DNA of 38,735 bases from Actinomycetota bacterium (GTDB lineage Bacteria; Actinomycetota; Thermoleophilia; UBA2241), in assembly GCA_026392275.1 (NCBI GenBank), contig JAPLCM010000058.1, forward strand, positions 1 to 38,735, read 5' to 3'. This document shows, piece by piece, positions 4,668 through 24,832 of this stretch. Made by a program: the position numbers and the translations under genes. Each line of letters opens with the position of its first letter. Position 1 is the first letter of the stretch. Below the pieces are notes generated by a model, which was not told where the DNA came from, made no database searches, and saw only the letters and a list, made by a program, of their open reading frames with translations.

Positions 4668-5081
4668 ATGGAACGCACGTTCGTCATGGTCAAGCCCAAC
4701 GGCGTGGCCCGAGGCCTCGTCGGCGAGATCGTCGCACGCTTCGAGCGCCGCGGCTTCACGCTCCGGGGCATGAAGGCGCTGCGCATCGACCGCGCTCTCG
4801 CCGAACGGCACTACGCCGAACACATCGGCAAGCCGTTCTTCGAATCGCTGGCCGCGTTCATCAGCTCCGGCCCGGTCGTGGCCATGGTGTGGGAGGGCCG
4901 CGAGGCGGTCTCCGTGGCTCGCGCCATGATGGGCGTCACCGACTCGGCGCTGGCCGCGCCGGGTACCATCCGCGGCGATTTCTCGCTGAGCAAAGAAGAG
5001 AATGTGGTGCACGGCTCAGACGGCCTCGAGAGCGCGGCCCGCGAGATCGCCCTGTTCTTCCGTGAGGACGAGCTCGTCTAG
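4668..5081 (+). CDS. ndk: Nucleoside diphosphate kinase
   Basis: [30 protein letters not shown]...[33 protein letters not shown]; catalytic HGSD; SD AGGAGGG. Confidence 0.97.
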
Positions 5082-5733
5082 CGCCGCCGCGCCGGGCGCG
5101 CCTCACGAGGCAGCGGGCGGCGCGCCGGGGCTGCGGCTCGTCCTCGCCTCGCGCTCGCCGCAGCGCGACGCGTTGCTGCGCCAGCTGTGCATCCCGTTTC
5201 GCGTGGTCGTCAGTGCGCACATCGAGGACCTGCACGACGGCGACCCCGTGCTCACCGTGGAACGCAACGCTCGCGGCAAGGCCGAGGAGGTGCTCGCTCG
5301 CACGCGGCTGCGACCCGGCGAGCTCGTTCTCGGCGTCGACACAGTCGTCGTCGCCGGCGGCCGCGTACTCGGCAAGGCGGCCGGCGAGCAAGAGGCGGCG
5401 CAGTTCCTGCGCTTGCTCGCCGGTCGCCGTCACGAGGTCTACAGCGGCCTGTACCTGTGCTCGCCGGAGCGCGCCGAGATCGGTCATGCCGTCACCGGCG
5501 TCACCTTCCGCTCGCTCGGCGCCGCCGACGTCGCACGCTACGTCGCCTGCGGCGAGTGGCGGGAGCGCGCCGGCGCCTACGCCATCCAGGGCGTCGGCTC
5601 AGCGCTCGTCGAGCGTGTCGACGGCGACTACTTCAATGTCGTCGGCCTTCCGGTGGCGGCCCTGCTGACGGCGCTCGCCGCCTTCGGCGCTCCCCCGTTC
5701 TGCTGGCTGCCGGCCGGCTTTGGGTCCTCGTGA
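5062..5733 (+). CDS. maf: Maf-like nucleotide pyrophosphatase
   Basis: [81 protein letters not shown] start overlaps ndk end. Confidence 0.93.
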
Positions 5734-5805: not shown

Positions 5806-5838
5806 CGTCGTTCGATAGCTCACCGAAAGGAGCTCGCC

Positions 5839-6882
5839 ATAAGCTTCCTCGGATTCCTGACAGGCTTCGGCGCTCGCGACATGGCGATCGACCTCGGCAC
5901 CGCCAACACGCTGGTCTATCTTCGCGGCAAAGGGATCGTGCTCTCCGAGCCCTCAGTGGTCGCCATCGATCATCGCAGCGGCGAGGTCCACGCCGTGGGC
6001 GCCGAGGCGAAGCGCATGTTGGGCCGCACTCCGGCCACGATCAGCGCCGTACGCCCTCTCAAAGACGGGGTCATCGCCGACTTCGATGTCACCGAGCAGA
6101 TGCTCCGCCACTTCATCCGCAAGGTCAGCCAGAACCGCTGGGCGCACCCGCGGGTGGTCATCTGCGTCCCCAGTGGCGTGACCGGCGTCGAAAAACGAGC
6201 AGTGGAAGAGGCGACCTACTCCGCGGGCGCCCGCTGGGCGACCCTCATCGAGGAGCCCATGGCGGCAGCCATCGGCGCCGGTCTGCCGGTCGCCGAGCCC
6301 ACCGGCAGCATGGTGGTCGACATCGGCGGCGGCACCAGCGAGGTGGCCGTCATCTCGCTGGGCGGCATCGTCGTGAGCCAGTCCATCCGCGTCGGCGGCG
6401 ACGAGCTCGACGAGTCGATCATCAGCTACGTCAAGAAGGAGTACAAACTCCTGATCGGCAGCCAGACCGCCGAAGAGATCAAGCTCGAGATCGGCTCGGC
6501 GTACGCACTGCCTCAGGAGGAACAGGCCGAGATCCGCGGCCGCGACCTCGTCACCGGCCTTCCCAAGACCATCGTCCTGTCGTCCGAAGAGGTGCGCGCC
6601 TCCATCGAAGAGCCCGTGCAAGCGATCATCGACGCCATCAAGGCGACTCTCGACAAGACGCCGCCGGAGCTCGCCAGCGACATCCTCGACCGCGGCATAA
6701 TGCTGGCCGGCGGCGGGTCGCTGCTTCAGGGTCTGCCAGAGCGCCTGCGCGAGGAGACTCAAATGCCGGTGCACCTGGCCGAATCTCCGCTCACCTGCGT
6801 AGCCGTGGGTTCGGGCAAGTACCTCGAGGAGTTTGATGTCCTCGTCAAGAGCAAGCGCAACTCCCGGCCGCGGGGCCGGTAG
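5839..6882 (+). CDS. mreB: Rod shape-determining protein MreB (start codon atypical)
   Basis: (I/M)SFLGFLTGFGARDMAIDLGTANTLVYLRGKGIVLSEPSVVAI; VVDIGGGTSEVAVISLGGIV; LAGGGSLLQGLPERL. Start placed at ATA 5839, 6 nt after AAAGGAG; the next in-frame ATG, 5881, lacks an SD. Confidence 0.93.
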   Translation: MSFLGFLTGFGARDMAIDLGTANTLVYLRGKGIVLSEPSVVAIDHRSGEVHAVGAEAKRMLGRTPATISAVRPLKDGVIADFDVTEQMLRHFIRKVSQNRWAHPRVVICVPSGVTGVEKRAVEEATYSAGARWATLIEEPMAAAIGAGLPVAEPTGSMVVDIGGGTSEVAVISLGGIVVSQSIRVGGDELDESIISYVKKEYKLLIGSQTAEEIKLEIGSAYALPQEEQAEIRGRDLVTGLPKTIVLSSEEVRASIEEPVQAIIDAIKATLDKTPPELASDILDRGIMLAGGGSLLQGLPERLREETQMPVHLAESPLTCVAVGSGKYLEEFDVLVKSKRNSRPRGR

Positions 6883-22688: not shown

Positions 22689-23248
22689 TCGACCGGGCAC
22701 AGGCGGAGCTGCTCATCGCCGGGCGCCTCTCGGAGAAGCGGCGCGAGCACTCGCGACGCGTGGCGGCCGAGGCCGCCGAGCTGGCGCAGCGCTTCGGCGC
22801 CGCGCCCGAAGCGGCCGTGATCGCCGGCCTGCTGCACGACTACTGCCGGGACCTCACGGACGCGGAGACGCTGGCCGCCGCGGCGCGCTACGGCCTCAAG
22901 GTGGGGCCGGTCGAGGCGCGGCGCCCCAGGAATATCCTGCACGGTCCCGTGGCCGCCGCCGAGCTCTCCGCAGCCGGCCTCGACGCCGCCATCGTCGGAG
23001 CGATCGCCCGCCACACCACCGGCGGCCCCGGCATGACGGTGCTCGAGAAGTGCCTGTATCTGGCCGACTTCTGCGAGCCGGGCCGCAAGTTCCCCGGCCT
23101 CGATGAAGTTCGCGCCCTGGCGGGCGCGTCGCTCGATGCGGCCGTGGCGGCCGCGGCCCGGATCACCTTGCTCGACCTCATCGTCCGCGGGCGCGGGGTG
23201 GTGCCCGATGCGCTGGCGTTGTACAACGAGACCCATGCCGGCCACTAA
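22685..23248 (+). CDS. yqeK: YqeK-like HD-domain hydrolase
   Basis: EKRREHSRRVAAEAAELAQRFG...AVIAGLLHDYCRDL; HGPVAA; ARHTTGGPGMTVLEKCLYLADFCEPGRKFPGLDEVRALA. Confidence 0.9.
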   Translation: MIDRAQAELLIAGRLSEKRREHSRRVAAEAAELAQRFGAAPEAAVIAGLLHDYCRDLTDAETLAAAARYGLKVGPVEARRPRNILHGPVAAAELSAAGLDAAIVGAIARHTTGGPGMTVLEKCLYLADFCEPGRKFPGLDEVRALAGASLDAAVAAAARITLLDLIVRGRGVVPDALALYNETHAGH

Positions 23249-24404
23249 GAAGGGCTACAGGGTCGCTCGTCTGCGCCGCCGCCGCCGCACCAAGGCGGAG
23301 CTCTGGCAGGCCTGGGTACTCTACGTCCTCGCTGCCGCCGTGGCCTTCGGCGCCGTGTTCGGCGCCTGGCAACTGGGGTCTCGCTGGCTGCAGAAACCGG
23401 AGGAGCCGGCGAGAGGCAGCTACCTGGCACTCGTCACGCTGACGGCGCCGGGATCCGCCGAGCCGGTGGCGGCTGCGCTGGTCGTCAAGGATGCAGCGAA
23501 CGACGCCACTGCCTTGTACGTGATCCCCAGGGATCTGTTGCTCGAGGGGCCGGACGGCGAGTATGTGTTCGCCGGCGACGCCATGGCGGCGGGCACGCTG
23601 AAACAGGATCTGCAGCGCGTCGTGCACGCCGGGATCGACGCGCAGTACGAGTTGCCGTTCGCCGCTCTCGGCGATCTCGCCGCGGCAGGGGAGTTCCAGC
23701 TCTCGCTGCCCGATCCGGTGGAGCTTGACGTGGCAGGCACGACACGGACGTTCGAGGATCGCGCCATCGTGTCAGCCTCTGAGCTTCCCGCACTCTTCGC
23801 TGCAAGCGGGCCGAGCGGCGAAGACGCGGCGCACATGCAGGAAGCGCTCTGGAAGGCGGTGCTTGACGCCGCGGCACTGCGCCCGGGCGACGTACGCGTC
23901 GCGGCCGCCCGCGCTGCCGCCGCACGAGCCAAGGGCAGTGCCGACCGGTGGTATCTGGGCGACGCGTTGCGCCGGCTCACGGGTGGCGCGGCCGTGGCAG
24001 GACGCATTCCTTCGTACTGGCGGGTGGCCGAGGGCCAGTTCGCCTTCCTTCCCAAGGTCGACGACATCATGGCCCAGATCACGCGCAAGGCCCCGGACTA
24101 CCGCAGCCGCTTCACGGTCGTGGTGCGCAACGGCAGCGGACGGGTGGGTGCCGGCTTGGGCGTCGCGGAGCGGCTCGCCATCCTCGATGTGAATCTCCCG
24201 GCGCCGACCAACGCCGACACCTTCGACTACCGGCAGACGCAGATCCTGGCGGGCAGCCGGGCCCTTCCGGTGGCGCAGGACATCCGTGCTATACTCGGCC
24301 GCGGAGTCATCCTCGACGGCGCGGACGTGCCTCCGGACACGGTCGTGGTCATCGTCGGTGCCGACACCGAGCCCACCAATGCCAAGCCAAAGGAACAGCC
24401 GTAG
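23235..24404 (+). CDS. Membrane-anchored protein with LytR C-terminal-like domain
   Basis: TM near N-terminus (WVLYVLAAAVAFGAVFGAWQLG); C-terminal FTVVVRNGSGRVGAGLGVAERLAILDVNLPAPTNADTFDYRQTQILAGS...PPDTVVVIVGAD; between yqeK and rsfS. Confidence 0.75.
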   Translation: MPATKKGYRVARLRRRRRTKAELWQAWVLYVLAAAVAFGAVFGAWQLGSRWLQKPEEPARGSYLALVTLTAPGSAEPVAAALVVKDAANDATALYVIPRDLLLEGPDGEYVFAGDAMAAGTLKQDLQRVVHAGIDAQYELPFAALGDLAAAGEFQLSLPDPVELDVAGTTRTFEDRAIVSASELPALFAASGPSGEDAAHMQEALWKAVLDAAALRPGDVRVAAARAAAARAKGSADRWYLGDALRRLTGGAAVAGRIPSYWRVAEGQFAFLPKVDDIMAQITRKAPDYRSRFTVVVRNGSGRVGAGLGVAERLAILDVNLPAPTNADTFDYRQTQILAGSRALPVAQDIRAILGRGVILDGADVPPDTVVVIVGADTEPTNAKPKEQP

Positions 24405-24832
24405 CACTCGAGGCAGAGCTCACGGCGGCCGAAGAACTGGCGCGCGACATCGCCGGCCACGCCGCCGACAAGAAGGCCGACGACATCGTCGTCCTTGCGA
24501 TGGGCGACGCCGTCAACTGGACCGACTTCTTCGTGATCGCCACCGGTGCCAACTCCCGCCAGACCAAAGGCATCGCCGAAGAGATCGAGGGCAAGCTCCG
24601 CCCGCGACGGCGTGCGGCGCGTGTCGAGGGCGCACACGAAGCCGAGTGGATCCTGCTCGACTTCATCGATGTGGTCGTGCATGTGTTCACGCCCGCGGCA
24701 CGTGATTTCTATCGTCTCGAGACGCTGTGGGGCGACGTCCCTCGCCTGGACCTCGCGGGCAGGGTCGGCGAGGCGCACGGCGAACCTGCCGGGAAGGTCC
24801 AAGCGAGTGTGGGGGAGGCTCCATATGCTTAG
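24401..24832 (+). CDS. rsfS: Ribosomal silencing factor RsfS (start codon atypical)
   Basis: (V/M)ALEAELTAAEELARDIAGHAADKKADDIVVLAMGDAVNWTDFFVIATGANSRQTKGIAEEIE...EAEWILLDFIDVVVHVF. Start assigned to GTA 24401, 6 nt after AAAGGA; no ATG/GTG/TTG for more than 40 codons upstream. Confidence 0.9.
   Translation, partial: VALEAELTAAEELARDIAGHAADKKADDIVVLAMGDAVNWTDFFVIATGANSRQTKGIAEEIEGKLRPRRRAARVEGAHEAEWILLDFIDVVVHVFTPAARDFYRLETLWGDVPRLDLAGRVGEAHGEPAGKVQASVGEAPYA

Follow-up and report, generated by a model that had tools for sequence, protein, structure and literature searches.

The window analysed here, a stretch of 38,735 nucleotides from an Actinomycetota bacterium (Thermoleophilia, UBA2241; contig JAPLCM010000058.1), carries an rsfS gene without a canonical start codon near its apparent beginning, which raises the question of which codon starts the translation of RsfS. 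The first-pass annotation had proposed a GTA codon placed 6 nt after an AAAGGA motif, and the coordinates of the motif, the spacer and the codon all check out (Table 1). The gene product was identified by a profile search, which matched PF02410 at 103 bits (cut-off 21.6) over profile positions 3-98 of 98. Upstream of the GTA, the closest in-frame ATG, GTG or TTG is the GTG at 23948, 151 codons off, and the earlier figure of more than 40 codons without any such triplet was thus an understatement. Downstream and in frame, the CTG at 24437 is codon 13, and the first ATG, at 24500, is codon 34 and lies within the RsfS fold, as had been claimed. The described overlap of the GTA with the preceding stop codon, read as GTAG, is also present, the stop being that of an upstream gene with a LytR_C domain. 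The 15-nt pattern AAAGGA-N6-GTA occurs once in the window compared to 0.02 occurrences expected. AAAGGA alone is not rare (6 in the window, 3.4 expected), and the case for this start therefore rests on conservation and not on the motif.

Table 1. Features of the rsfS and mreB start regions (positions are those of the whole window)
Feature	Position	Strand	Remarks
rsfS coding sequence	24401..24832	+	143 codons plus TAG stop, predicted start GTA; PF02410 match; Shine-Dalgarno and GTA kept in 15/15 family genomes
rsfS start codon GTA (predicted)	24401..24403	+	Invariant column in the 15-genome alignment
Shine-Dalgarno AAAGGA of rsfS	24389..24394	+	6 nt 5' of GTA; GGA invariant
Spacer between Shine-Dalgarno and GTA	24395-24400	+	ACAGCC
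rsfS stop TAG	24830-24832	+	
RsfS residues 1-12 if begun at GTA			VALEAELTAAEE or its M- form
Upstream gene, LytR_C domain	23235..24404	+	PF13399, 30 bits; ATG 23235 kept in 9/9
LytR_C gene stop TAG	24402-24404	+	GTAG overlap with rsfS GTA; overlap in 13/15 genomes
mreB coding sequence	5839..6882	+	Start ATA 5839-5841; PF06723, 505 bits
Shine-Dalgarno AAAGGAG of mreB	5826..5832	+	AAGGAG kept in nearly all family copies

We assessed the conservation of this start in the organism's own family, termed f1 (family codes are those given by the genome search), which was represented by 15 genomes from six genera; the relatives with names are MAGs labelled Thermoleophilia or Actinomycetota. An rsfS gene was present in all 60 relatives searched. 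Within f1, a Shine-Dalgarno sequence (SD) stands precisely 6 nt 5' of the GTA in 15 of 15 genomes, compared to at most 5 of 15 at columns further upstream. The start zone lacks an in-frame ATG, GTG or TTG in 14 genomes, the exception being G010, which has one late GTG. In a 78-nt alignment of the 15 genomes, the GGA of the SD and the GTA are among the few invariant columns, and in G011, where the GTA is located one codon further 5' relative to the fold, the SD has shifted along with it. The GTA is kept in 14/14 relatives, whereas ordinary GTA valine codons of the window genes are kept in 11.3% of ortholog codons. Among the closest relatives, rsfS codons 2-12 vary mainly at third positions, which suggests that they are already coding; this pattern is weak in the wider set.

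The overlap of the rsfS start with the upstream stop, as GTAG or GTAA, was found in 13 of the 15 genomes. The upstream stop begins at -5 in G001 and at -28 in G004 (the latter read by eye), and the GTA is retained in both. The overlap described earlier was borne out but is not required, and these two genomes also contradict the idea that the codon is conserved merely via the upstream stop. These comparisons indicate that the rsfS codon is conserved beyond the demands of coding or of the overlap. With the SD, the 6-nt spacing and the GTA in every family genome, and with no canonical alternative in the start zone, the proposal of GTA as the start was upheld. We consider that GTA is probably a true, selected weak start of rsfS in this family (probability about 0.8).

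If the true start were located elsewhere, at the CTG at 24437, at an ACG (24422..24424, forward strand) with a GAGG 8 nt upstream, or further in, then the SD and GTA would be kept for a different purpose, such as the C-terminus or stop of the upstream protein. CUG and ACG are indeed better known as weak starts, and the letters of the SD double as codons for the K-D with which the upstream protein ends. However, the CTG, named in the first-pass annotation as the alternative, is replaced by CTC in G008 and by CTT in G012 and has no conserved SD of its own, while neither the ACG nor its GAGG is kept in the family; both codons were rejected. Given in addition the retention of GTA where it lies outside the upstream stop, and the coding character of the first codons after it among close relatives, we regard a start elsewhere as very improbable. 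A frameshift fusion of LytR_C and RsfS was ruled out by the different stop position and frame in G004. The genome is a fragmented draft (334 contigs, 7.8% contamination), which would favor a sequencing or assembly error, with GTG as the real codon or with a shifted frame. Against this, the identical GTA is found in 15 separate assemblies, in most of which a GTG would abolish the upstream stop as well. The misread GTG at 24401 and the upstream frameshift, both previously listed as possible refutations, are thus excluded or very unlikely, and the chance of an error of this type is close to nil.

The mreB gene had been presented as a second case in the window of an xTA start, likewise 6 nt after AAAGGA, where xTG would be expected. 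Its ATA start was supported, although the distance was misjudged, as AAAGGA lies 7 nt from the ATA and the 6-nt spacing belongs to the longer AAAGGAG. In f1, the mreB start column contains ATC or ATA in every copy, with ATC in most and ATA only in G000, G001, G002, and G006. Among the genomes looked at (loci L045-L063 and L304-L333), mreB starts with ATC, ATA or ATT behind AAGGAG in f1, f2, f4, and f6, and with ATG or TTG in f3 and f7. An overlap of the rsfS kind is absent from the non-canonical mreB start. A general xTA rule did not hold, with mreB mostly starting with ATC in the family and rsfS using quite different codons in other families.

When the window genes were aligned over the family, nearly all had a conserved ATG, GTG or TTG. 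A wider start scan covered approximately 1.1 Mb of stretches from the family, as opposed to whole genomes, and comprised 44 groups with at least four members. One column with ATG, GTG or TTG in all members was found in 25 groups, and the codons at these columns were ATG (80), GTG (76), and TTG (9). The remaining 19 groups, inspected by eye, comprised shadow reading frames, normal starts of ragged position, a small number of genes with unclear starts (maf, scpA), and one clear case, mreB, in which every member has AAGGAG with ATC or ATA. For maf (window positions ~5079-5125), no SD-backed start codon was evident in the organism's own genus, and the start may overlap the upstream gene. Similarly, scpA had no evident SD-backed start in the G002 and G013 stretches, where an overlap with the upstream gene is possible. 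The automatic scan did not flag rsfS as a candidate, probably because of its overlap with the upstream frame and the short SD match in G010, and the gene was examined separately.

The anticodon of the initiator tRNA in the family is the ordinary CAU, and an altered initiator tRNA was rejected on these grounds; the other anticodon-arm match, in G000, is a tRNA-Pyl. A lineage with altered start decoding was rejected as well, given this CAU anticodon and the ATG, GTG or TTG at the conserved start columns of the 25 groups. The IF3 alignment, inspected by eye, had no evident change, the predicted RNA structure at the rsfS and mreB starts was not better than that of shuffles, and no match to known RNA families was found. 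As read from these comparisons, the use of a non-canonical start is gene-specific, with rsfS and mreB as the clear exceptions here. As a separate observation, the family harbors pyrrolysine machinery, with tRNA-Pyl (CUA) in several genomes (L094, L091, L092, L097, L100, L082, L087) and PylS above the cut-off in 14 of the 15 (L375-L382). Despite this machinery, TAG is still the stop of about a quarter of conserved genes (46/179).

Beyond the family, we compared 129 rsfS genes from the class and phylum. In more than half of them (68), the zone from codon -26 to codon -4 relative to the Pfam start has no ATG, GTG or TTG, and just 26 genes combine such a codon with an SD there. The control gene bL27 starts with ATG (29) or GTG (1) in 30/30 genomes of the class. 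The start assignments in f2, f3, f4, and f6 were derived from SD position and alignment, those in f4 being the least certain. The rsfS start is CTG in 8/11 genes of f3 and in 4/4 of f26, and CTG, ATC, ATT or ACG is found behind the SD in f6. The predicted starts in f7 are canonical, and the weakness of the rsfS start is in this respect not universal. Seven codons before the Pfam start, 17 of the 21 f2 genes have GCG or TCG, and 20 of 21 have an SD at that place. The codon keeps its CG while its first base and the encoded amino acid vary, and it looks like a start codon and not like a residue under selection. The same column contains GCG in f23 (3/3) and f37 (1/1), and ATG, TTG or CTG in several other genomes. 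Loci of f2, f23, and f37 with GCG or TCG and without a usable ATG, GTG or TTG include L125, L129, L145, L153, L157-L173, L215, L266, L267, and L269. The comparison outside Actinomycetota comprised Escherichia coli and four loci.

The proposed mechanism is that rsfS in f1 would be translated from GUA, with the SD six nucleotides upstream setting the position, and that initiation would usually be linked to LytR_C termination at the overlapping GUAG or GUAA. Selection would maintain the weak start as a throttle on RsfS synthesis. GUA is outside the accepted start codons, and a very low efficiency would be expected for it in E. coli. The ordinary initiator fMet-tRNA would read GUA with a third-position mismatch, and the mismatch may lead to an unstable 30S complex that is sensitive to IF3. 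RsfS binds to the 50S subunit and may prevent the final step of initiation, in which this subunit joins the 30S initiation complex (PMC7125091). If RsfS acts in this way, a rise in its level would affect an unstable start complex first, which, more speculatively, would result in negative feedback of RsfS on its own synthesis. Taken alone, these regulatory steps (IF3 and RsfS feedback) are tentatively proposed and more doubtful than the start itself. The coupling to LytR_C probably adds to the control but is dispensable, as suggested by G004.

The sequence evidence fits equally well with a constant low dose of RsfS, in which the GTA start is weak and no regulation via IF3 or RsfS takes place. 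The same sort of start in mreB, which has no role in initiation, is in line with this explanation, whereas the fact that non-canonical codons recur in a factor acting on subunit joining hints at more than dosage. We give a fixed low dose nearly even odds and rate it no lower than the regulatory version. Alternatively, ribosomes that end the LytR_C gene at GUAG or GUAA could restart at once, which would make the identity of the codon nearly irrelevant. Such reinitiation would account for the overlap in 13 of 15 genomes, and in f6 the stop is often immediately 5' of the rsfS start. However, the invariant codon implies that its identity matters, the SD is kept, the stop in G004 is 28 nt upstream, and the non-canonical start of mreB lacks an overlap of this kind, making this an unlikely explanation. 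Both the dosage and the reinitiation explanations share the GTA start with the mechanism that we prefer, and the respective confidences do not sum to one. The preferred mechanism could be extended to an infC-like role of rsfS across Actinomycetota, in which the start would be kept weak while the codon changes (GUA, CUG, AUC, AUU, ACG), even GCG and UCG, without a central U, would truly initiate translation in three or more families (f2, f23, f37), and RsfS synthesis would be self-limiting via the block of subunit joining. We view this extension as conceivable, though on balance unlikely.

Conserved non-canonical starts are already known for infC, pcnB, sigR, ccpN, and cvfC1. The sigR gene of Streptomyces starts with GTC and is repressed by IF3; GTC is found in 32 of 34 species and GTT in the other two (PMC5472188). 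Like sigR, rsfS is an Actinomycetota gene with a conserved G-T-non-G start and a good SD, in which ATG, GTG and TTG are unused. It differs from sigR in gene and codon, in the conservation of the start over six genera with non-canonical starts in further families, and in being known from sequence alone, whereas the effects of codon and IF3 mutants were measured for sigR. The resemblance to infC, which uses AUU, AUA or AUC in IF3 self-control, lies in a factor that acts on subunit association and in a long-kept non-canonical start. In contrast to that system, self-control of rsfS is hypothetical, and infC is predicted to start with ATG in f1, so that the classical IF3 self-control via a weak start would be absent from infC here. 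Upstream of infC (L254-L263), an SD-like AAAGGAG is parted from the ATG in most genomes by a terminator-like hairpin (GGCTCGCC...GGCGAGCC, followed by a T-run). This hairpin, for which no Rfam match was found, may be an attenuator or may unite the SD with the ATG.

Precedents are provided by infC, ccpN, and cvfC1; non-canonical starts lower expression to approximately 10% of the AUG level, with values as high as 30% for ccpN in rich medium (PMC13009471). The Staphylococcus aureus genes ccpN (AUA) and cvfC1 (AUU) share with rsfS a conserved non-canonical start and a strong SD, theirs giving ~10-30% of AUG (PMC13009471), but their codons differ from AUG at the third base only, whereas GUA differs at the first and third. 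For the CUG start in E. coli, a value of 0.86% is cited in PMC11497404. The rsfS gene of E. coli starts with UUG (PMC10917681), as is also seen in its sequence. It is thus the same gene with a strong SD-like AGGGGGA and a minor start codon; unlike GUA, UUG belongs to the three accepted start codons of bacteria.

The phrase "GUA start codon" was not found in the open-licence literature searched, which is no proof of its being unknown, and neither were a GUA start of rsfS, its conservation over six genera, or recurrent non-canonical rsfS starts. The GCG and TCG starts of rsfS, if real, would go beyond a variant of the known non-canonical kind. Because the GUA start is fixed in the whole family and falls outside the usual gene-calling rules, many genome annotations probably get rsfS and mreB wrong or lack them altogether. 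Initiation at GUA in f1, and at GCG or UCG in other families, becomes directly testable. The rsfS start suggests that weak initiation of translation is a conserved means of controlling the ribosome-silencing factor.
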